Source of the DNA: an uncultured Roseovarius sp.
Lineage (GTDB): Bacteria; Pseudomonadota; Alphaproteobacteria; Rhodobacterales; Rhodobacteraceae
DNA: 64,000 nucleotides
Direction: 5' to 3'
Assembly: GCA_951812895.1 (NCBI GenBank)
Contig: OX638333.1
Location: 1,850,366 to 1,914,365, forward strand
Shown: positions 18,417 to 27,263 of the stretch, piece after piece
How positions within the stretch are numbered: the first letter of the stretch is position 1
Layout of the letters: every line of letters begins with the position of its first letter
Made by a program: the position numbers and the translations under genes
The notes under the pieces: model-generated
Told to the model about the DNA's origin: nothing
Databases searched by the model: none
Seen by the model: the letters and a program-made list of their open reading frames with translations, nothing else

Positions 18417-20513
18417 ATGACAGATTTTAGCGGATTGCGTGTCGCCGTTGATATCGGTGGAACATTTACCGATACAGTTCTTGTTAACGACGATGGAACT
18501 GTCCTAGCCACCACCAAAACCCCGACCACGCCGGAAAATCCTACGAACGGAGCTTTGGAAGGTGTCGAGCATGTGCTGCAAGTCTCAGATGCAGATTGGT
18601 CTGGCATTTCCGGATTCATTCATGGAACGACTTTAGCAACAAACGCATTGATTGAGCGCCAGGGCGCAAAGGTTGCGGCCATTACGACCGAAGGGTTTCG
18701 CGACATCCTCGAAATCGGATACGAGCGTCGATACAGCCAGTATGATATCAATCTGCAGAAGCCTGATCTCATCGTCCCGCGCGAGTTGTGTTTTACCATT
18801 GGTGGACGCATGGACGTTCACGGGCATCAACGAGCTGACCTGGATGAGGCGGCACTGCCCGCGCTCGTTTCGGCTCTGCAAAGGTCCGGTGCTGGGGCCG
18901 TAGCTATCTGCCTGATGCATTCATATGCCAACCCTAGTCATGAACTTCGCCTGCGTGATTCTCTGCAAAAGGCTTTGCCGGAGCTCTCAATTTCACTATC
19001 CCACGAAGTCAGTCCCGAAGCGCGCGAATTTGATCGCCTTTGTACCACCATCGCTAACGCTTACATTCAGCCGCTTATGGCGCGCTATCTTTCCGAGTTT
19101 CAGGAACGGTTCAGTGCAGTAGGGTTGACCTGTCCAATTCTGATGATGACTGCCGGAGGCGGTATGACGACGGTCGAAACTGCCGCCGCACTACCGATCA
19201 GGTTGGTTGAGTCCGGTCCCGCCGGAGGCGCCATTTTGGCAGCTCACATTGCACAGCGGGCTCAGGCGGGTTCGGTGCTTTCCTTTGATATGGGCGGAAC
19301 CACGGCCAAGCTTTGTTTGATCGACAACTATCAACCACAAAGCGCCCGCAAGTTTGAGATCGCCCGCGCAGAGCGCTTTATCAAAGGGTCCGGCATGCCG
19401 GTGCGTATTCCTGTACTTGAGATGATTGAAATCGGAGCAGGTGGCGGGTCTATTGCCAGTGTTGACCGGCTGGGCAGAGTACAAGTTGGCCCCCTCAGCG
19501 CGGGGAGCGAACCCGGCCCCGCCGCGTTCGACAAAGGTGGTACTGAGCCAACTGTAACGGACGCAGACGTGCTTCAGGGGTTGATCGAACCGGCTAGTTT
19601 TGCGGAGGGGCGGCTGACCATCAAGCCTGATTTAGCCAGTATTGCGGTTGGCCAAGCGGTAGGTGGACCGCTTTCTCTGTCAGCGGTGGAAGCTGCTGCA
19701 GGGATCAGCGAGATCGTAGATGAAAACATGGCCGGGGCTGGCCGTATGCACGCTGTGGAATCCGGTAAAGACTTGGGCGCCCGCACGATGATAGCCTTTG
19801 GAGGCAATGGCCCGCTTCATGCAACGCGCGTTGCCCGGCGCGCAGGCGTGCGCCGCATTCTGATACCGCGTGATCCCGGAGTTGGATCCGCGGTGGGTTT
19901 CCTATTTGCACCTGTATCTTTTGAAATCGTGCGCAGTCGTTACGCGCGTCTGGACAGTCTTGATGTCTCAGACATCAGCCGCTTTTTTGACACCATGACA
20001 GAAGAGGCGGAAGCAGTTGTGCGCGCCGGCGCCCCGGTTGGTGAATTGAACTACACTCGCACGGCCTTTATGCGGTATCACGGGCAAGGTCATGAGATAG
20101 AAATCACCCTTCCGGACCGAAGCCTGGAAGCGGGTGACATCGAAACATTGCGTCTTGCGTTCGAGGCCGAATACAGTCGCCAATTCTCGCGTTCGGTTCC
20201 AGGTATGGAAATCGAAATTCTCAACTGGTCCGTTCAGGTGGCATCGAGAACCAGCGAAGCAGATGCAATTGCGAAAACGACTGCACAAGGATCTGCAAAA
20301 CCTGACAGGTCTCATGACATTCTGTGCGAAGTGTCTGGTGAGCGGCGCAAGGCGTCCATCTATGATCGGGGCAACCTAGGGCCGGGGCAATACATTGAGG
20401 GCCCTGCTCTTATCGTTGAACCACAGACAACTACCTATGTCAGTGCGGATTTCACAGCCGCGATTGACGGAGACGGAAATATTATCCTTGAACGTCTGGA
20501 GGGCCAGTCATGA
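18417..20513 (+). CDS. Hydantoinase/oxoprolinase family protein, subunit A (HyuA-like)
   Basis: 698 residues, the usual length of N-methylhydantoinase A. The N-terminus VAVDIGGTFTDTVLVNDDG is the ASKHA phosphate-binding loop; later FDMGGTTAKLCLID and IEIGAGGGSIASVD are the second phosphate and adenosine motifs, with AFGGNGPLHA in the C-terminal half. With subunit B (next gene) such enzymes use ATP to open cyclic amides: hydantoins, 5-oxoproline, acetone-like substrates in some relatives. First gene of a seven-gene operon; its last 4 bases overlap hyuB (ATGA). Actual substrate unknown. Confidence 0.92.
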   Translation: MTDFSGLRVAVDIGGTFTDTVLVNDDGTVLATTKTPTTPENPTNGALEGVEHVLQVSDADWSGISGFIHGTTLATNALIERQGAKVAAITTEGFRDILEIGYERRYSQYDINLQKPDLIVPRELCFTIGGRMDVHGHQRADLDEAALPALVSALQRSGAGAVAICLMHSYANPSHELRLRDSLQKALPELSISLSHEVSPEAREFDRLCTTIANAYIQPLMARYLSEFQERFSAVGLTCPILMMTAGGGMTTVETAAALPIRLVESGPAGGAILAAHIAQRAQAGSVLSFDMGGTTAKLCLIDNYQPQSARKFEIARAERFIKGSGMPVRIPVLEMIEIGAGGGSIASVDRLGRVQVGPLSAGSEPGPAAFDKGGTEPTVTDADVLQGLIEPASFAEGRLTIKPDLASIAVGQAVGGPLSLSAVEAAAGISEIVDENMAGAGRMHAVESGKDLGARTMIAFGGNGPLHATRVARRAGVRRILIPRDPGVGSAVGFLFAPVSFEIVRSRYARLDSLDVSDISRFFDTMTEEAEAVVRAGAPVGELNYTRTAFMRYHGQGHEIEITLPDRSLEAGDIETLRLAFEAEYSRQFSRSVPGMEIEILNWSVQVASRTSEADAIAKTTAQGSAKPDRSHDILCEVSGERRKASIYDRGNLGPGQYIEGPALIVEPQTTTYVSADFTAAIDGDGNIILERLEGQS

Positions 20514-22177
20514 GCGCGATCCCACAAACCCGCCTGCAAGTCATGTGGAACCGTCTGCTTGCCGTGGTTGAAGAACAGGGTCAGGCACTGATCCGCGCGG
20601 CGTTTAGCCCGATCGTCAGGGAAAGCGGCGATATCTCTGCCGGTATCTTTGATCTGCGTGGCCGGATGCTGGCACAGGCCGTGACCGGCACGCCCGGCCA
20701 TATCAACACCATGGCCGAGGCAGTTAAACATCTGCTGGATCGCTTCAGCATCCAGAACATGCAGCCCGGCGATATCTATATGACCAATGATCCTTGGCTG
20801 GCGTCCGGGCATCTTAACGATTTTCTGCTAATGCAGCCGGTTTTTCACAAGAACCGTGTCGTTGGATTTACTTCCTGTACGTCGCATCTGGCAGATCTCG
20901 GGGGCAAAGGGATGGGGCCAGAAGGGTCGGATATCTTTGACGAGGGGTTGTTGATCCCACCCTGCAAATTGGTAGATCGTGGAGAAATCCATGAATTTCT
21001 GATGGAGGTGGTCAAGGCCAACTCTCGGGAACCCATTGCGAACGAGGGTGATATTTACGCACTGATCGCGTGCTGCGAAACCGGGGCCACTCGGTTGGCT
21101 GGAATGATGGAAGAGTTCGGCCTGGATGATCTCGACCCACTTGCTGACTACATCATCGAAACCTCTTACAAAGGCACTCTGGATGCGATCGCCGAGGTGC
21201 CCAAAGGCGTTTACCATAGCACGCTGAATGTAGACGGCTATGAGCATCCTATTACGCTTTGTGCAACACTCACTGTAGCCGACGATCACATCACGCTGGA
21301 TTTTGATGGAACATCGAGGTGTTCCGACAAAGGGATCAATGTTCCTCTAAACTATGCGACCGCTTATTCGGTTTTCGCACTGCGCTGTATCATCGGGCCA
21401 GACATTCCGAACAACGCCGGATCGCTTGAACTGTTCCGGGTAACGGGGCCGAAAGGTTGTATCCTGAATGCACAAAGACCTGTACCGGTGGCCATGCGTC
21501 ATTCACTGGGCCAAATGACACCTGATCTTGCTTATGGCTGCCTTTCGCAGGCCTTGCCGGACATGGTGCCGGCTGAGGGTGCCTCTTGCCTATACGACCT
21601 CCCCTTGCGCCATACTCCAGAAGCAGCGCGTGATGGTGGAACCACATTCGCGTTGGAACTCGTCTACAACGGGGGAACGGGTGCACGGCCATCGTCCGAC
21701 GGGCTGTCAGCAACAGCCTTCCCAAGCGGGGTTTGGGGCAGCCAGATCGAAACGACCGAAGCCGTGGCCCCGGTTCTGATCACCAGACGAGAATTGCGAG
21801 AAGACAGCGGCGGAGCTGGTAAGTATCGTGGCGGATTGGGGCAGCATATCGAAATGGAATCCGCAACTGACGAAGATTTTCTGGTGTTCCTTTCGGTCGA
21901 ACGCGTTCTGTTTCCCGCAGCGGGTAGACATGGCGGAGAAGCGGGTGCCAAAGGGCGTATACGCGTCGGCCACGATGGTAGTGATTTACCCAGCAAGGGT
22001 GAAATACGTGTGCCTGCGGGCACACCCTTGGTTGTTGCCACACCGGGCGGAGGTGGCTTTGGGCCTGTCCTGGAACGAAGCCAACGTGATGTAACGCGCG
22101 ACCTTAAGTCTGGAATCATTTCAGAAAAAGCCGCCTTGGGAACATATGGTTATCGCGGTGCAGGAGATGATAAATGA
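20510..22177 (+). CDS. Hydantoinase B/oxoprolinase family protein (HyuB-like)
   Basis: 555 residues. Family motifs seen: SPIVRESGDISAGIFDLRGRMLAQ near residue 25, PGDIYMTNDPW near 83, FTSCTSHLADLGGK, SLGQMTPDLAYG and a Gly-rich C-terminus (ATPGGGGFGPV). This is the partner that, with HyuA, completes the ATP-dependent cyclic amidohydrolase. ATGA overlaps on both ends show translational coupling to hyuA and the aminotransferase gene. Confidence 0.93.
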   Translation: MSAIPQTRLQVMWNRLLAVVEEQGQALIRAAFSPIVRESGDISAGIFDLRGRMLAQAVTGTPGHINTMAEAVKHLLDRFSIQNMQPGDIYMTNDPWLASGHLNDFLLMQPVFHKNRVVGFTSCTSHLADLGGKGMGPEGSDIFDEGLLIPPCKLVDRGEIHEFLMEVVKANSREPIANEGDIYALIACCETGATRLAGMMEEFGLDDLDPLADYIIETSYKGTLDAIAEVPKGVYHSTLNVDGYEHPITLCATLTVADDHITLDFDGTSRCSDKGINVPLNYATAYSVFALRCIIGPDIPNNAGSLELFRVTGPKGCILNAQRPVPVAMRHSLGQMTPDLAYGCLSQALPDMVPAEGASCLYDLPLRHTPEAARDGGTTFALELVYNGGTGARPSSDGLSATAFPSGVWGSQIETTEAVAPVLITRRELREDSGGAGKYRGGLGQHIEMESATDEDFLVFLSVERVLFPAAGRHGGEAGAKGRIRVGHDGSDLPSKGEIRVPAGTPLVVATPGGGGFGPVLERSQRDVTRDLKSGIISEKAALGTYGYRGAGDDK

Positions 22178-23259
22178 TATCCCCAGTTCCTCACGTCGCC
22201 GCAATGGCACCTTATGCTTTGGCTGATCTGTCTGCACCGCCGGGCAAACGCTTGGTGTCTTTATCGCAAAATGAAAGTTTACGAGGCCCAAGCCCCTTGG
22301 CAATCAAAGCGTCGGAGAGTGCAGCTCAGAACCCGCATTTGTACCCCGATCCCGACTGGACTTCGCTGCGTGATGCAATTGCCGAGGTGCATGAAATCGA
22401 CGCAGGTTTGATCGTTTGTGGCAATGGGTCACTCGACCTTATCGGAAGCATTGCGAGGGCTTTTTGCGGTCCAGATCGCGCCGCTCTGGCGCCGGCCCAT
22501 GCCTATCCATTCTTTCGTAGTGCGACGCTCATGACCGGCGCACGATACGACGCGGCACCTGAATTGGCGATGACAGCAGATGTCGATGCTCTGTTGAACT
22601 CAGTTCAGCCGGATACAAGCATCGTTTTCGTCGCAAATCCCGGCAATCCGACCGGCACACGCATTTCACGCACCGAGTTGCTACGCCTTCGCGAAGGGTT
22701 GAGAGGTGACATTCTGTTTGTGATTGATGAGGCCTATGGCGAGTTTGCAGATCATGTGCATGAGCCAATGTTCGATCTGGTTGACCGTGGGGATACCGTG
22801 GTTCTGCGCACATTTTCCAAGGCATACGGCCTTGCCGGAATGCGCGTTGGTTGGGGCTTGTTTCCGGCGCTGATTGGCACGGAAATACGTAAACTTCTGA
22901 ACCCAAACAATGCCGCCGCTCCGGGCCAGGCAGCTGCACAGGCTGCAATGCTGGATCAGGACTACATGAGAGCGACTTGTGCCGAGACTGCACAACAGCG
23001 CGACGCATTTGCCAAACGCGCGCGCGCCCTCGGGCTGGACGTGCCGCAAAGTTTCACCAACTTCACTCTCATACGCTTTGCATCTTCTGAGGCGGCAGCC
23101 AGTGCTGATGCATTCCTGCGATCAGAAGGTGTATTCCTTCGCGCGCAGGGTGGGGCCGGGCTACCGAATTGCCTGCGCGCGACCGCAAGTGTCGCAGATG
23201 ACATGGATTTGGCCGCCGGACTGCTTGAGGATTGGATGCAAAGGGAGGCCTCTAAATGA
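22174..23259 (+). CDS. Class I/II PLP aminotransferase, HisC-like
   Basis: 361 residues with the fold-type I aminotransferase pattern of histidinol-phosphate aminotransferase relatives: SQNES at about 31, FVANPGNPTGT at about 152, VIDEAYGEF at about 183, and the PLP lysine Lys216 in RTFSKAYGLAGMRVGW. It lacks his-operon neighbours; its place in a hydantoinase operon suggests it transaminates an amino acid freed by ring opening rather than histidinol phosphate. Coupled to both neighbours by 4-base overlaps. Confidence 0.85.
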   Translation: MISPVPHVAAMAPYALADLSAPPGKRLVSLSQNESLRGPSPLAIKASESAAQNPHLYPDPDWTSLRDAIAEVHEIDAGLIVCGNGSLDLIGSIARAFCGPDRAALAPAHAYPFFRSATLMTGARYDAAPELAMTADVDALLNSVQPDTSIVFVANPGNPTGTRISRTELLRLREGLRGDILFVIDEAYGEFADHVHEPMFDLVDRGDTVVLRTFSKAYGLAGMRVGWGLFPALIGTEIRKLLNPNNAAAPGQAAAQAAMLDQDYMRATCAETAQQRDAFAKRARALGLDVPQSFTNFTLIRFASSEAAASADAFLRSEGVFLRAQGGAGLPNCLRATASVADDMDLAAGLLEDWMQREASK

Positions 23260-24002
23260 TTGCCCCAACACGCGGCCGCGCACGTATCGGTGTGTTTGTG
23301 CCTTTTACCAATACCAACCTTGAACCTGACATGATGATGTTGCGACCGAACGGTGTATCGCTGCATTTTGCCCGTTTGGGCGGGTACGATGAGGATGAAA
23401 TTCCTGATGAATCGCAGATGGCAGAGCTTGGCGCTGCGGATATGGAGGAGCCGTTACGCCTTCTTCAGGGGGCCAAGCCGGATGTGATCATGTACGGCTG
23501 TACCTCGGCAACGCTCGCCCATGGCCCTGTATTTGATCGTGATTTGGCAGAAAGGATCGCCAAATCAAGTGGGGCCAAAACGGTTACGGCAGCCGGGGCT
23601 CTTGTCCACGCCTTGAAATCGCTCGGAGTAAAAAGGATTGGCTTTGCTTCCCCTTATGTTCCATCGCTGAACGATGAGGCAATTGCATATCTTGCTAGAG
23701 AAGGCTTTGAAACCGTCTCGCGTGCCGACTTTGCGGGTGAGCTTGATAATGCGGGGCAGGGCGCTGTAACCCCGGATGAGGTGTTTGCCTTAGGTCAGCG
23801 CGCCAACAGCGAAACAGCTCAGGCGGTTGTCTTGTCCTGTACCGACATGCGCAGTGTCGAGGTTGTTGACCAGCTTGAAAGCGCGATTGGAAAATCGGTG
23901 ATAACTTCTAATCAGGCAATGATGTTTCAGGCGATGCAGCTTGCAGGGATAGAAGATGCGCCCATGGGTTTTGGGCAGCTTTTCGAAAGGATCGGATCAT
24001 GA
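23256..24002 (+). CDS. Asp/Glu racemase superfamily protein, maleate isomerase/arylmalonate decarboxylase type
   Basis: 248 residues. Two catalytic-type cysteines are present: Cys82 in YGCTSAT and Cys195 in LSCTDMRS, the arrangement of maleate cis-trans isomerase and related racemases. The N-terminal GVFVPFTNTNLEPD stretch also fits the maleate isomerase subgroup. Such enzymes isomerise or racemise small dicarboxylic or amino acids without cofactor. Whether this one racemises a carbamoyl or amino acid, or isomerises a maleate-like acid, cannot be told from sequence. Confidence 0.82.
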   Translation: MIAPTRGRARIGVFVPFTNTNLEPDMMMLRPNGVSLHFARLGGYDEDEIPDESQMAELGAADMEEPLRLLQGAKPDVIMYGCTSATLAHGPVFDRDLAERIAKSSGAKTVTAAGALVHALKSLGVKRIGFASPYVPSLNDEAIAYLAREGFETVSRADFAGELDNAGQGAVTPDEVFALGQRANSETAQAVVLSCTDMRSVEVVDQLESAIGKSVITSNQAMMFQAMQLAGIEDAPMGFGQLFERIGS

Positions 24003-25381
24003 ACCAAACGCTTAACCCCGTAGCGGTTCCCAGCGAAGAACAGTTCGCTGAGATTGCGGAATTTGCTCTGCGGAGTGATTTGGATATCCCTGAAGAAGCA
24101 CTACACCACACGTCGACCCTATTGATTGACACCCTTGGCGTTGCGGCCGGGGCAACTTCACTTGAGGTCGGGCATATCGCCCGGGAACACGCCGTCGAAT
24201 TTCACGCGGCGGGCTCGAACTCCTCCGCTGCACGCATGTTGTTTGATGGTCGGCTTGTCAGCCTGCCCGGCGCAGCATGGGCATTGGCAACACAGATCGA
24301 CAATCTGGATGGGCATGATGGATTCAACCAAGTCAAAGGTCACATTGGCTGTGCCGTTGTTCCCGCCCTGTTTGCATTCGCGGAAAGGCATCCGGACTTA
24401 ACCGGACAACAAGCATTACGTGCACTCGCCATGTCATATGAGATCGCTGCGCGCGCGGGCTTGTCCCTGCATGCCACTGTCAGCGATTATCACACTTCAG
24501 GGGCATGGAATGCGCTTGGCGTTGTCGCACTTGGTTGTCACCTTGAAGGGACTGACAAAGAGATATTGCGACAGGCGCTTGGTATTGCAGAGTATCATGG
24601 TCCTCGTAGCCAAATGATGCGCGAGATCGACAACCCGACGATGTTGCATGATGGCTCTGGTATGGGGGCAATGGTTGGCACCATGTCAACGCTTCTCGCC
24701 ATACGTGGCTTTACCGGTGCGCCTGCGATCACGATCGAGGCGCCAGAGGTGAGTGCTTACTGGTCTGATTTGGGGCAGCGATGGACCGTATCCGAAAATT
24801 ACATCAAGCCTTATCCCAGCTGCCGCTGGGGTCACGCTGCAATCGACGCCCTGCGCAAGCTCATGTTGACCGAAGGGGTCACAGCGGAAAACACAGCAGC
24901 CATAGAAGTCCGTACATTTGACGAGGCTGCACGCCTTTTCGCAGGCGTACCGGAAACCACTACTCAGGCACAATATTCGCTCAACTTTGTGATGGCGGCG
25001 ATGTTGCGTTACGGCGCGGTTGCACCGGAACATATCTCGGGTTCTGGACTGAATGATCCGGCAATCACGTTATTGATTCCTCGGATCACTGCCGTCTCAT
25101 CAGACCGTCATAACGCGGCGTTTCCAGAGGGGCGATGGTCAGATGTCGAGGTTACACTGACTGACGGTCGCAAGCTCAATTCTGGTGATGTCGCAGCCAG
25201 CGGCGGGCCCGGTGCGTGGCGCAGTGATGCAGAGGTCGAAGAAAAGTTCCACGTTTTTTGCGCCAAGGCTTTGTCAAAGGATCGGACCAAAGCCATTTGG
25301 GCGATGCGTGATGCGTTGCTTGAACCTGGCGTAAAGTTTTCTGATCTGATTGCATTGATCTACCCGGGTGTTGATGCATGA
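23999..25381 (+). CDS. MmgE/PrpD family protein
   Basis: 460 residues. DTLGVAAGAT at about residue 43, the H-rich LDGHDGFNQVKGHIGCAVVPALFA segment and YIKPYPSCRWGHAAIDAL at about 265 are hallmarks of MmgE/PrpD. Members include 2-methylcitrate dehydratase, cis-aconitate decarboxylase and iminodisuccinate epimerase. No methylcitrate-cycle genes are near, so a role on a dicarboxylic or imino acid intermediate of this operon is more likely. ATGA overlaps at both ends. Confidence 0.88.
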   Translation: MNQTLNPVAVPSEEQFAEIAEFALRSDLDIPEEALHHTSTLLIDTLGVAAGATSLEVGHIAREHAVEFHAAGSNSSAARMLFDGRLVSLPGAAWALATQIDNLDGHDGFNQVKGHIGCAVVPALFAFAERHPDLTGQQALRALAMSYEIAARAGLSLHATVSDYHTSGAWNALGVVALGCHLEGTDKEILRQALGIAEYHGPRSQMMREIDNPTMLHDGSGMGAMVGTMSTLLAIRGFTGAPAITIEAPEVSAYWSDLGQRWTVSENYIKPYPSCRWGHAAIDALRKLMLTEGVTAENTAAIEVRTFDEAARLFAGVPETTTQAQYSLNFVMAAMLRYGAVAPEHISGSGLNDPAITLLIPRITAVSSDRHNAAFPEGRWSDVEVTLTDGRKLNSGDVAASGGPGAWRSDAEVEEKFHVFCAKALSKDRTKAIWAMRDALLEPGVKFSDLIALIYPGVDA

Positions 25382-26352
25382 GCACAGAAAGCCCAACTAT
25401 CTTATTACACAATTCTGAAACCGGCGAGATGGCCGCGCGCCTGAAAGCCGCCCTGCCGAACATAACGGTTGCCGAATGCAACAGCTACGAAGGCATGCAA
25501 TCCCTGGTGCCCGAACTGAAGCCGGATGTGGTGTATTCTGTCCGCTTCGCCGGCACGCCCGGTTTTCCCCGTGACATCATGCTTGGGCCAGATGGCCCGC
25601 GTTGGATTTCGGTCGGTGGTTCAGGTTGTGACCACCTCGGGCAATGGGACACCGAACAGGTCACCGTAACCAATTCGGCAGGTGTGGCTGCGGCGATGAT
25701 GGCAGAGTATGTTTTTGGCTCGGTACTGAATTTTACTCTCGATATCTCAGGGCTGCATCAGGACAAAGCCGCACGTAAATGGAACGGTGCACGCTTGATG
25801 GAAACATTGCGTGGCAAGACCATTCTGATTGTTGGTCTTGGTCACACCGGCCAGGAAATTGCCACCCGGGCCAAAGCATTCGGTATGCATGTCATTGGCA
25901 CCCGTGCCCGGCCCGTACCAACCGACAATGTGGACGAAGTTTTCGCCGCTGACGATCTGCCCGAGTTATGGGACCGTGCAGATGTGGTTGCGGTTTGCGT
26001 TCCGTTACTGGCGTCTACGCGCGGTCTGATTGATGCACGCGCGCTGGCAGCGATGAAGCCGACAACTATTTTGGCGGATGTCTCGCGCGGAGGGGTTGTC
26101 GAAGGCAGTGCACTGATTAATGCGCTGAGGAATGGAACTATCGCGGCTGCGGCGCTGGACGTGTTCGAGACTGAGCCACTACCGCCCGACAACCCGATTT
26201 GGGAGTTGGAGAACGTTATCCTCTCACCACATTGTTCCAGTGTCTATGAAGGCTGGGAAATGGAATCCTTTGAAATGTTCATCGAAAACCTGCGTCGCTG
26301 GCAGCGGGGCGAGCAGTTACACAACATCGTAGATCCCACGCGTGGATACTAA
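25378..26352 (+). CDS. D-2-hydroxyacid dehydrogenase family protein
   Basis: 324 residues. The NAD-binding loop is VGLGHTGQEIATRAKAFGM; the catalytic Arg lies in ADVSRGGVVEG, the Glu in DVFETEPLP and the His in ILSPHCSS, as in D-isomer-specific 2-hydroxyacid dehydrogenases. It should interconvert a 2-keto acid and a D-2-hydroxy acid with NAD(P)H. In this operon it could reduce a keto acid from the aminotransferase or the aldolase. Overlaps the PrpD gene by 4 bases. Confidence 0.9.
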   Translation: MSTESPTILLHNSETGEMAARLKAALPNITVAECNSYEGMQSLVPELKPDVVYSVRFAGTPGFPRDIMLGPDGPRWISVGGSGCDHLGQWDTEQVTVTNSAGVAAAMMAEYVFGSVLNFTLDISGLHQDKAARKWNGARLMETLRGKTILIVGLGHTGQEIATRAKAFGMHVIGTRARPVPTDNVDEVFAADDLPELWDRADVVAVCVPLLASTRGLIDARALAAMKPTTILADVSRGGVVEGSALINALRNGTIAAAALDVFETEPLPPDNPIWELENVILSPHCSSVYEGWEMESFEMFIENLRRWQRGEQLHNIVDPTRGY

Positions 26353-26366
26353 TTAGAGGACACACC

Positions 26367-27263
26367 ATGTCAGAGCGGTTTCGCGGCGTCATCACGCCTA
26401 TTCTTACCCCTTACAATGATGATCACAGCATTGCGCGAGACCTTTATCTTGATCACGCCGCAGGATGTCTTGCAGGGGGTGCACACTATATTTCACCCTT
26501 TGGCACGACCAGCGAGGCATTAAGCAACTCTTCGCGCGAACGGATGGAAATGCTGGAACTGTTGATCGGTTCCGGTGCTGCCCGGCCTGATCAGATGATG
26601 CCAGGCACGGGGCTTTGCTCGTTTGAGGAGACACTGACCTTGTGCCGCCACGCGGTTGATCTGGGATGCGCGGCTGTGATGACCCTGCCACCGTTTTTCT
26701 TCGTAAATGCCTCTGATGAGGGGCTTTATCGTTACTTTAGTGAGTTGATTGAGGCCACCGGATCAGAGGCACTTAAGATCTGCCTTTATCATATCCCGCA
26801 AATGGCTGGGATTGGCATTTCGCCCGCACTTGCAGCCCGTCTGAACGTGGCATTCCCCCAGATTGTTGTGGCTTACAAAGACAGCTCCGGGAATTGGGAC
26901 AATACGCAGGCGGTGATCGAAGCTGCGCCGGGCATTTCTGTGTTTCCCGGATCAGAAAGTTTCCTGATCAAAGGTATGAAAATTGGTGGTGGCGGCTGTA
27001 TTTCTGCCAGCTGCAACTCAAACGTTGCGGCCATCCGGGCGATGTACGAGCTTGCCAAGACCCAGAACTGGGAGGCGGCAGAGGCAGCACTTGGGCCAAT
27101 CAACATTCATCGGCAAGCCATTCAGGACGGTGGCCTGATCCCTGCACTAAAATCTCTAAAAGCATATCAATCCGGCGATCTTCGCTGGCTCAATCTACGA
27201 CCACCGCTAGACAATGCAGACTCCGAACTTTGGGCTGCGCTGGCGGCAACCCTTCCGGCGTAG
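26367..27263 (+). CDS. DapA/N-acetylneuraminate lyase family aldolase
   Basis: 298 residues, the family's length. Motifs: GTTSEALSNSSRER at about 46-60 (carboxylate-binding GTTGE-like), Tyr141 in LYHIPQMAG and Schiff-base Lys171 in VVAYKDSSGNWD. Members condense or split pyruvate and an aldehyde; this copy is far from lysine-biosynthesis genes, so a catabolic retro-aldol or hydratase role is more likely. It is the last gene, 14 bases after the dehydrogenase with an AGAGGA ribosome site, and ends 4 bases from the convergent M16 gene. Confidence 0.88.
   Translation: MSERFRGVITPILTPYNDDHSIARDLYLDHAAGCLAGGAHYISPFGTTSEALSNSSRERMEMLELLIGSGAARPDQMMPGTGLCSFEETLTLCRHAVDLGCAAVMTLPPFFFVNASDEGLYRYFSELIEATGSEALKICLYHIPQMAGIGISPALAARLNVAFPQIVVAYKDSSGNWDNTQAVIEAAPGISVFPGSESFLIKGMKIGGGGCISASCNSNVAAIRAMYELAKTQNWEAAEAALGPINIHRQAIQDGGLIPALKSLKAYQSGDLRWLNLRPPLDNADSELWAALAATLPA

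Follow-up and report, generated by a model that had tools for sequence, protein, structure and literature searches.

In a 64,000-nucleotide stretch of DNA from an uncultured Roseovarius sp. (contig OX638333.1; the whole stretch is hereafter the window), we describe a seven-gene operon organized around a four-gene core. The core codes for the two subunits of an ATP-dependent hydantoinase/oxoprolinase-type amidohydrolase (hyuA and hyuB), a HisC-related aminotransferase (hisC), and a two-cysteine protein of the Asp/Glu racemase superfamily (here termed race). The unit is this core, to which an MmgE/PrpD-family gene (prpD) and a D-2-hydroxyacid dehydrogenase gene (dh) are common additions and a DapA-like gene (dapA) a rare one. 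The seven genes, with their recurring core, almost certainly represent a functional unit, and the arrangement is not due to chance since the core order recurs in other genomes. We tentatively interpret it as a catabolic pathway for an amino-acid-like cyclic amide, such as a lactam, an imide, or a cyclic ureide, that is N-methylated in some relatives; as a whole, we place this interpretation somewhat short of an even chance.

The conservation of the core is best seen in the family to which the window belongs. Orthologs of race (at least 51% identity over most of the length, with paralogs at 38% or less) are found in 26 of 295 family genomes, including that of the window, and the order hyuA-hyuB-hisC-race is retained in 22 of the 25 others, the exceptions being the loci L033, L046, and L055. 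Orthologs of hisC are likewise found in 26 of the 290 family genomes used for this count and for the MttB statistics given below; 24 of these 26 also carry race (G278 in pieces only), the exceptions being G167 and G175. In G278, which is of the same genus, the race match is 52% identical over half the protein only; its locus L056 (G278:C1:357000-376900) retains no more than fragments of hyuA, hyuB, hisC, and race and looks like a decayed core. In G167 (L224:810-7852), which has no race match, hisC is accompanied by a broken hyuA and a short hyuB, and a gene of the flavin adenine dinucleotide (FAD)-GcvT type lies a short way ahead of hyuA. Wider searches with race at E ≤1e-50 recovered five genomes outside the family in a class sample of 385 genomes; in a phylum sample of 398, the matches were confined to the window's own genome and one other member of the family. 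Two of the five class genomes have no hyuAB beside race in the stretch read, and one has hyuAB and no hisC. A scan of named genomes, from which the best 80 of 209 relatives were taken, gave relatives in Roseovarius, Ruegeria, Tateyamaria, Nioella, Boseongicola, Silicimonas, Pelagibius, Neomegalonema, and others. Plasmid-borne copies are present in Leisingera and Ruegeria (nine of the 11 plasmid matches were examined).

To describe the gene neighborhoods, we used 109 unique race loci, i.e., 123 loci minus three without a race ortholog and 11 duplicates; the set takes in the decayed L056 and short contigs, and neighbors were counted on either strand anywhere in the stretch read. Among the 97 loci with at least 5.2 kb before race, hyuA was found in 93, hyuB in 93, and hisC in 90, with the four-gene order unbroken in 88. 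In the 93 loci with at least 4 kb after race, we found on this side dh in 50, prpD in 44, an MttB-type gene (MTTB) in 12, a LysR gene in 11, dapA in 10, an FAD-GcvT gene in eight, a class-V aminotransferase gene in six, and soxA in two. The bare four-gene core accounts for 21 of the 109 loci, all with both flanks read. The original prediction had treated the seven genes as one set and proposed a neighborhood search for their order in other Rhodobacterales; this order is indeed found in 11 of the 109 loci besides the window (in three of them prpD or dapA is in two pieces). Thus, the set recurs in Rhodobacterales and more rarely beyond, yet its constant part is the four-gene core, joined optionally by prpD and dh and seldom by dapA; it is not a fixed unit of seven.

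The overlaps between genes are conserved as well. Counting only adjacent same-strand pairs, an ATGA/GTGA overlap is kept between hyuA and hyuB in 89/100 cases, hyuB and hisC in 88/96, hisC and race in 90/100, race and prpD in 33/38, prpD and dh in 16/36, and dh and dapA in 0/10. Fusions into single open reading frames (ORFs) join PrpD to the dehydrogenase in L136 and HyuA to HyuB in L105 and L145. In dapA's place after dh, eight loci (L043, L045, L116, L125, L130, L132, L137, and L144) have an MlrC/M81-type gene and genes for a family-5 ATP-binding cassette (ABC) importer, preceded in L045 and L144 by an intervening ORF.

Within the window, all seven ORFs are intact and lie on the + strand between positions 18417 and 27263 (Table 1). 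The original description of a one-directional run of seven genes, six of them coupled by 4-base ATGA overlaps, is borne out: five such overlaps join the first six genes, and dapA starts 14 bases past the dh stop. Its observation that the operon includes no transporter or regulator also holds, with some relatives having importers, a LysR gene, and an N-demethylation set nearby. In gene order, the Pfam assignments are Hydantoinase_A, Hydantoinase_B, Aminotran_1_2, Amdase, MmgE_PrpD, 2-Hacid_dh, and DHDPS. None of the NCBIfam models listed reaches its cut-off for any of the seven proteins, so HisC, DapA, and PrpD are used here as family names only. In base composition, the operon (G+C fraction, 0.554) hardly differs from the window as a whole (0.558). 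By sequence, the upstream neighbor reads as GyrB and the downstream neighbors as M16 peptidases on the opposite strand; the ORF families flanking the operon recur around that of two Roseovarius loci, L066 and L069.

Table 1. Genes of the operon, with positions in the window
Gene	Position	Strand	Product and features
hyuA	18417..20513	+	698 amino acids (aa); large (ATP-site) subunit of an ATP-dependent hydantoinase/oxoprolinase-type amidohydrolase; PF05378/PF01968/PF19278
hyuB	20510..22177	+	555 aa; metal-site subunit; PF02538, 483 bits; ATGA overlap with hyuA
hisC	22174..23259	+	361 aa; fold-I pyridoxal phosphate (PLP) aminotransferase, HisC-related; PF00155; ATGA overlap
race	23256..24002	+	248 aa; Asp/Glu-racemase superfamily, EutA/maleate-isomerase-like; PF17645; ATGA overlap
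prpD	23999..25381	+	460 aa; MmgE/PrpD family, own subgroup; PF03972/PF19305; ATGA overlap
dh	25378..26352	+	324 aa; D-2-hydroxyacid dehydrogenase; PF02826, 173.8 bits; ATGA overlap
dapA	26367..27263	+	298 aa; dihydrodipicolinate synthase (DHDPS)-family lyase/aldolase; PF00701, 113.2 bits

The active-site residues of HyuAB support the ATP-driven opening of a cyclic amide that had been proposed as the first step, as far as this can be predicted from residues. In the ortholog collections used here, matches of <85% coverage or <39% identity were left out, as were, from the alignments, those with internal stops. HyuA residues D12, D19, D291, and the first proline of the PGP motif are kept in 96, 96, 97, and 97 of 97 orthologs, respectively, both shortfalls being gaps; HyuB residues D41, H101, D104, and H126, equivalent to D41/H99/D102/H124 of CapB, are kept in 96/96. 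HyuAB therefore displays the features of the family of ATP-dependent hydrolases and carboxylases, namely the ATP-site aspartates, the PGP motif, and the D-H-D-H metal site. In caprolactamase, replacing the ATP-site aspartates or the D-H-D-H residues abolished or nearly abolished activity, according to PMC8453981; bicarbonate dependence is reported and carboxyphosphate proposed in PMC8453981 and PMC11033972. The nearest solved chains are an N-methylhydantoinase, which is the closest for both subunits, and 6yra, whose sequence bears the CapA loop cited in PMC8453981, followed by the carboxylases. Against the caprolactamase models of NCBIfam, HyuA and HyuB score 443.5 and 197.9 bits versus a cut-off of 1000 each. 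PMC9768040 offered nothing of use on the hydantoinase question.

Further HyuAB pairs were noted. The window's genome has a second, distant one (L150:9168-19705, corresponding to G000:C1:2035167-2045704), 32/30% identical to the window's, which adjoins an MttB gene, an FAD-GcvT gene, and a further FAD oxidoreductase gene, so that the proximity of HyuAB to demethylases recurs in another HyuAB lineage. A third pair (L152:6210-13641), 52/59% identical, is found next to ORFs reading as a RidA-like protein and a regulator, an Amidohydro_3 gene, and branched-chain-type ABC genes. Another distant pair (28-29%) lies beyond the MttB set of G200 (L197:573-4557).

The two remaining core proteins score below the NCBIfam cut-offs with which they were compared. 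The HisC-like protein scores 226.3 bits against TIGR01141 (cut-off, 276.55), below the mark for histidinol-phosphate transaminase; K216, which we take to be the PLP lysine, is kept in 96/96 orthologs. The race protein scores 124.3 bits against the EutA model TIGR02990 (cut-off, 318) and 83.7 bits against the arylmalonate decarboxylase (AMDase) model NF052327 (cut-off, 225), and its Asp_Glu_race match is just below the Pfam cut-off. Its closest NCBIfam model is EutA, its closest solved chain is maleate isomerase, and it matched no hydantoin racemase model in NCBIfam. C82 and C195 are present in 104/104 orthologs, placing it among the two-cysteine racemases and isomerases. Both active-site cysteines are the defining feature of the two-cysteine enzymes of this superfamily, and AMDase has one cysteine only. 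The earlier family assignments stand by Pfam, except that the fourth gene is nearest to EutA, AMDase, and maleate isomerase rather than to hydantoin racemase. EutA has a proposed ring-inversion role in hydroxyectoine breakdown (review, PMC5924519). A race paralog of the window's genome that lies near a hisC gene (L057) was considered and set aside, its neighbors reading as the HisC and TyrA of amino-acid biosynthesis.

Among the accessory proteins, PrpD appears to form a subgroup with an altered active site. D104, H115, H165, K270, and C275 are kept in 53/53 orthologs. For iminodisuccinate epimerase, PMC7347537 proposes H99 and Y145 as bases, and for the cis-aconitate decarboxylase bsIRG1 it lists the site residues D91, H102, H151, K200, K266, and C271; we took its numbering as two above that of the Bacillus subtilis chain and matched its K200 by motif. 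The epimerase His base is kept in PrpD, and Y145 falls in a gap in 53/53 orthologs. Assuming the two-number offset, all of the decarboxylase site is kept except the lysine of the K-P-L-H motif (K-P-[LM]-H), which has no counterpart in any of the 53 aligned orthologs. The epimerase role suggested for PrpD in the original prediction is thereby weakened, and identity with iminodisuccinate epimerase or cis-aconitate decarboxylase was rejected on these residues missing in the alignment. The score against the 2-methylcitrate dehydratase model NF042438 is 28.4 bits (cut-off, 950). The dehydrogenase qualifies as a D-2-hydroxyacid dehydrogenase: its NAD-binding domain scores 173.8 bits against a Pfam cut-off of 25.1, and R237, E266, and H285, presumably the catalytic Arg/Glu/His site, are kept in 55/55 orthologs. 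In the DapA-like protein, K171 and Y141, which we take to be the Schiff base lysine and the catalytic tyrosine, are kept in 8/8 orthologs. The position aligned with what we take to be the substrate arginine of DapA synthase is M in the window and N in 7/8; together with a score of 97.1 bits against TIGR00674 (cut-off, 206.15), this places it outside dihydrodipicolinate synthase. Its family would fit a 4-hydroxy-2-oxoglutarate aldolase, which may release pyruvate and glyoxylate.

Evidence on the role of the operon comes from relatives in which demethylation genes accompany the core. An MttB-type quaternary-amine methyltransferase gene lies near the core in 12 of the 109 loci, at three places of the race tree (a quick tree with 46/102 inner branches open), and some of these loci also carry an FAD-GcvT demethylase, sarcosine-oxidase-type subunits, a LysR regulator, and an aminotransferase. 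The core-linked MttB proteins are 63-69% alike across the three lineages (Pelagibius, Neomegalonema, and roseobacter-type loci). After its core, Ruegeria sp. SCSIO 43209 has on the opposite strand MttB, dh, a small gene, the sarcosine-oxidase-type genes (alpha, delta, and beta), and prpD, and then LysR, an FAD-GcvT dehydrogenase, and a class-V aminotransferase; a family-5 ABC importer, with its solute-binding protein at L157:7327-8934, lies on the other side of the core. Four Leisingera plasmids combine the core with MttB, prpD, LysR, and FAD-GcvT genes and, in part, a class-V aminotransferase. The plasmids of Ruegeria THAF33 and AD91A have prpD and LysR and no MttB, that of Ruegeria sp. B32 has the bare core, and that of Leisingera methylohalidivorans has hyuA in pieces and no MttB nearby. 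Pelagibius shows the order hyuA-hyuB-hisC-race-MTTB-prpD-dh, with a glycine-betaine-type ABC transporter (OpuAC) starting about 0.9 kb further on beyond an opposite-strand ORF. Before this core, at L097:2310-3437, there is a match to the cobalamin-independent methionine synthase catalytic domain (48.7 bits). In Neomegalonema, MTTB directly follows race in one of four loci.

Across genomes, the MttB ortholog is found in 13 of 290 family genomes, eight of which have the core, in four of the eight elsewhere in the genome. The co-occurrence gives a hypergeometric p of ~1.3e-6, without correction for relatedness. The core loci of G031, G193, and G200 show no more than the four genes; prpD, joined by dh in the case of G200, is found there with the MttB set at a distance from the core. 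According to a 2025 study (PMC12478193), MttB-family (pfam06253) proteins rise in Ruegeria pomeroyi growing on glycine betaine and other N-osmolytes, and such bacteria often carry several MttB-family genes, up to seven. The window's genome has 14 MttB-family and 17 FAD-GcvT-type matches.

One genome, G175, appears to have exchanged the ring hydrolase itself. Its gene order is LysR, prpD-soxBDAG-type-MTTB-FADGcvT-aminotransferase V, a dihydropyrimidinase/D-hydantoinase-type gene, BKACE, and dh-hisC with family-5 importer genes, flanked on the left by a RidA-type gene and a nitrilase-family amidase. The family search found no race match in it, and for HyuB there is a single match, of 33% identity and including one stop. 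The dihydropyrimidinase-type protein scores 439.7 bits against a dihydropyrimidinase model cut-off of 647. Its occurrence in the place of HyuAB suggests a ring that can be opened by HyuAB and equally by a hydrolase of cyclic ureides or imides.

The starting points for a reconstruction are direct observations, i.e., the conserved linkage, the protein families, the intact catalytic residues, the demethylation set of relatives, and the dihydropyrimidinase-type gene of G175. From these we infer the substrate class and the order and direction of the steps, those after ring opening being drawn purely from family chemistry. HyuA would use ATP to activate the ring amide, perhaps via carboxyphosphate (the intermediate proposed for caprolactamase), and the metal-bearing HyuB would hydrolyze the activated amide. 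The EutA-like two-cysteine protein would act on either the ring compound or the opened acid, interconverting stereoisomers or cis/trans isomers. Removal of the amino group by the HisC-like transaminase would yield a 2-oxo acid, PrpD would dehydrate or hydrate the carbon skeleton, and the dehydrogenase would interconvert 2-oxo and D-2-hydroxy acids; in operons of the Roseovarius type, the DapA-family lyase would cut the skeleton to release pyruvate. In some relatives, MttB, the FAD-GcvT dehydrogenase, and sometimes sarcosine-oxidase-type subunits may strip methyl groups before or between these steps. Taken separately, it is more likely than not that the pathway breaks down an amino-acid-like cyclic amide or ureide whose ring HyuAB opens, and just as likely that, at least in relatives with MttB, the natural substrate carries N-methyl groups; N-methylation of the substrate in the window's own strain is doubtful.

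Several observations weigh against this interpretation. The window's own locus has no MttB, Sox, or class-V aminotransferase gene and none of the other demethylation genes; its genome lacks the MttB ortholog (the best of the 14 paralogs is 46% identical), and its 72% identical FAD-GcvT relative, which may be a general demethylase, has no other genes of the set beside it. No MTTB is present in the stretch read of 97 of the 109 loci, and five of the 13 genomes with the MttB ortholog are without race. The race tree is compatible with a single origin of the MttB linkage, and the adjacency was counted without a shuffle control, though such genomes hold many MttB genes. Moreover, dapA (11 loci) and MTTB (12 loci) never share a locus among the 109, so the two operon types may serve different substrates. 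Given this counterevidence, a link to N-methylated compounds has good support in some relatives, and for the window it is no more than a possibility. As for ring opening, the hydrolase swap is known from one genome, and race orthologs occur without HyuAB in the stretch read at L073, L076, L171, and L172. The other loci searched contained no N-carbamoyl amidase like that of G175, a result that argues against a hydantoin as the substrate of the HyuAB-type systems. The Tateyamaria loci L073 and L076 have the order hisC-race-prpD-dh, with no hyuAB match in the sequence available before hisC.

The same genes could be arranged into other schemes. The homology of HyuAB and the reaction known from NS671 would fit a variant of the Pseudomonas NS671 plasmid hyuABC system, in which HyuAB turns a hydantoin substituted at position 5 into an N-carbamoyl amino acid, isomers are equilibrated by the racemase, and the transaminase takes up the amino acid once an unlinked carbamoylase has acted. 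The dihydropyrimidinase-type gene of G175 and the amidase on its cluster's left flank agree with this. We nevertheless consider it rather unlikely, since Pfam identifies none of the seven genes as a carbamoylase (no search for unlinked ones in the rest of the genome was made), the G175-type amidase is missing from the other loci searched, and race matched EutA and AMDase models in place of a hydantoin racemase model. HyuAB could also act as an ATP-dependent carboxylase comparable to acetone or acetophenone carboxylase, with which it shares similarity and the ATP and metal residues, and the AMDase-like protein, given its PF17645 match, could decarboxylate or isomerize the product. This is improbable in view of the precedence of N-methylhydantoinase and 6yra, with its CapA loop, over carboxylases among the matches, and of the replacement of HyuAB by a cyclic-ureide-type hydrolase in G175. 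An ectoine/hydroxyectoine-type system, with race as an EutA inverting a ring hydroxyl, draws on EutA being the best NCBIfam model and on the ring-inversion role proposed in the review (PMC5924519); the low EutA score and the absence of any other Eut-named model among those listed for the seven proteins led us to reject an ectoine operon, and we give this scheme hardly any chance.

Other schemes retain the enzymes and change their grouping or direction. The operon might house two or more short pathways, with HyuAB, HisC, and race producing a central metabolite by themselves and prpD, dh, and dapA serving another substrate, as the bare cores and the rare dapA, never overlapping dh, might indicate. 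The frequent overlap of race with prpD, the PrpD-dehydrogenase fusion, and the association of prpD with the MttB set in three genomes with a bare core speak against such a division, which we regard as fairly improbable. A biosynthetic or detoxifying route running in the reverse direction is very unlikely: the transaminase and dehydrogenase steps are reversible as a matter of general knowledge, but ATP-driven ring hydrolysis is hard to reverse, and the importer and demethylase genes near the core in some relatives fit uptake and breakdown.

Returning to catabolism of a cyclic amide, a more specific and rather speculative form of it, which we think unlikely as it stands, is an as yet undescribed marine pathway for a cyclic betaine, i.e., a ring amide or ureide with a trimethylammonium (or successively demethylated) amino group. 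MttB, FAD-GcvT, and Sox-type proteins would demethylate this compound, HyuAB (in G175 the dihydropyrimidinase-type protein) would open the ring, and HisC, PrpD, the dehydrogenase, and the DapA-type lyase would convert the product to a 2-oxo or hydroxy acid and pyruvate. The window's strain would then meet the compound already demethylated or use others of its 14 MttB-family and 17 FAD-GcvT-type genes. Creatinine, betaine-lipid head groups, and carnitine (prompted by the BKACE gene of G175) were considered as substrates and, having no direct support, are not claimed. The earlier statement that the set is not known as one pathway agrees with our literature search, in which titles and the beginnings of abstracts, with most subscription papers and all bioRxiv preprints outside its scope, yielded no publication on this gene combination and no published substrate for it. 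Likewise, titles and abstract beginnings revealed no paper linking homarine or the hydantoins of ergothioneine/hercynine to the cluster, and neither is claimed as its substrate.

Rhodobacterales with this core come from sources as varied as coral, seawater, biofilm, and microplastic, and its conservation points to an organic nitrogen compound with a turnover still to be mapped. Demethylases near the core in some relatives narrow the search to N-methylated cyclic amino-acid derivatives, among which a short substrate panel could decide. Both the PrpD subgroup with its altered active site and the possible exchange between ATP-dependent and ATP-independent hydrolases would aid the annotation of many genomes.

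Parallels to known systems are partial in every case. With CapAB of Pseudomonas jessenii and OplAB of P. putida, the window pair shares the two-subunit organization of ATP-dependent cyclic-amide hydrolases, and the ATP-site aspartates and D-H-D-H metal site are identical to those of CapAB; it differs in lying far below the caprolactamase cut-offs and in its partner genes. An N-methylhydantoinase offers the closest solved chain for both HyuA and HyuB. The hyuABC system of NS671 has the same HyuAB enzyme type, whereas the window has no carbamoylase and instead a transaminase, PrpD, a dehydrogenase, and a lyase. NS671 also has a hydantoin racemase of the same superfamily as race. With EutA, maleate isomerase, and AMDase, the race protein has its superfamily in common, along with two conserved cysteines, yet it falls below the cut-offs for EutA and AMDase. 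Similarly, PrpD belongs with iminodisuccinate epimerase, cis-aconitate decarboxylase, and 2-methylcitrate dehydratase in the MmgE/PrpD family, with five site residues kept, and departs from the first two in lacking the second epimerase base and the site lysine, respectively. Finally, the roseobacter demethylation of glycine betaine by MtgBCD and the following steps is echoed in the MttB-family, FAD-GcvT, or Sox-type demethylases that recur beside the core in some relatives. Here, unlike in that system, the MttB ortholog group stands beside ring hydrolase, transaminase, and PrpD genes, and the window's locus represents a version of the core without MttB.

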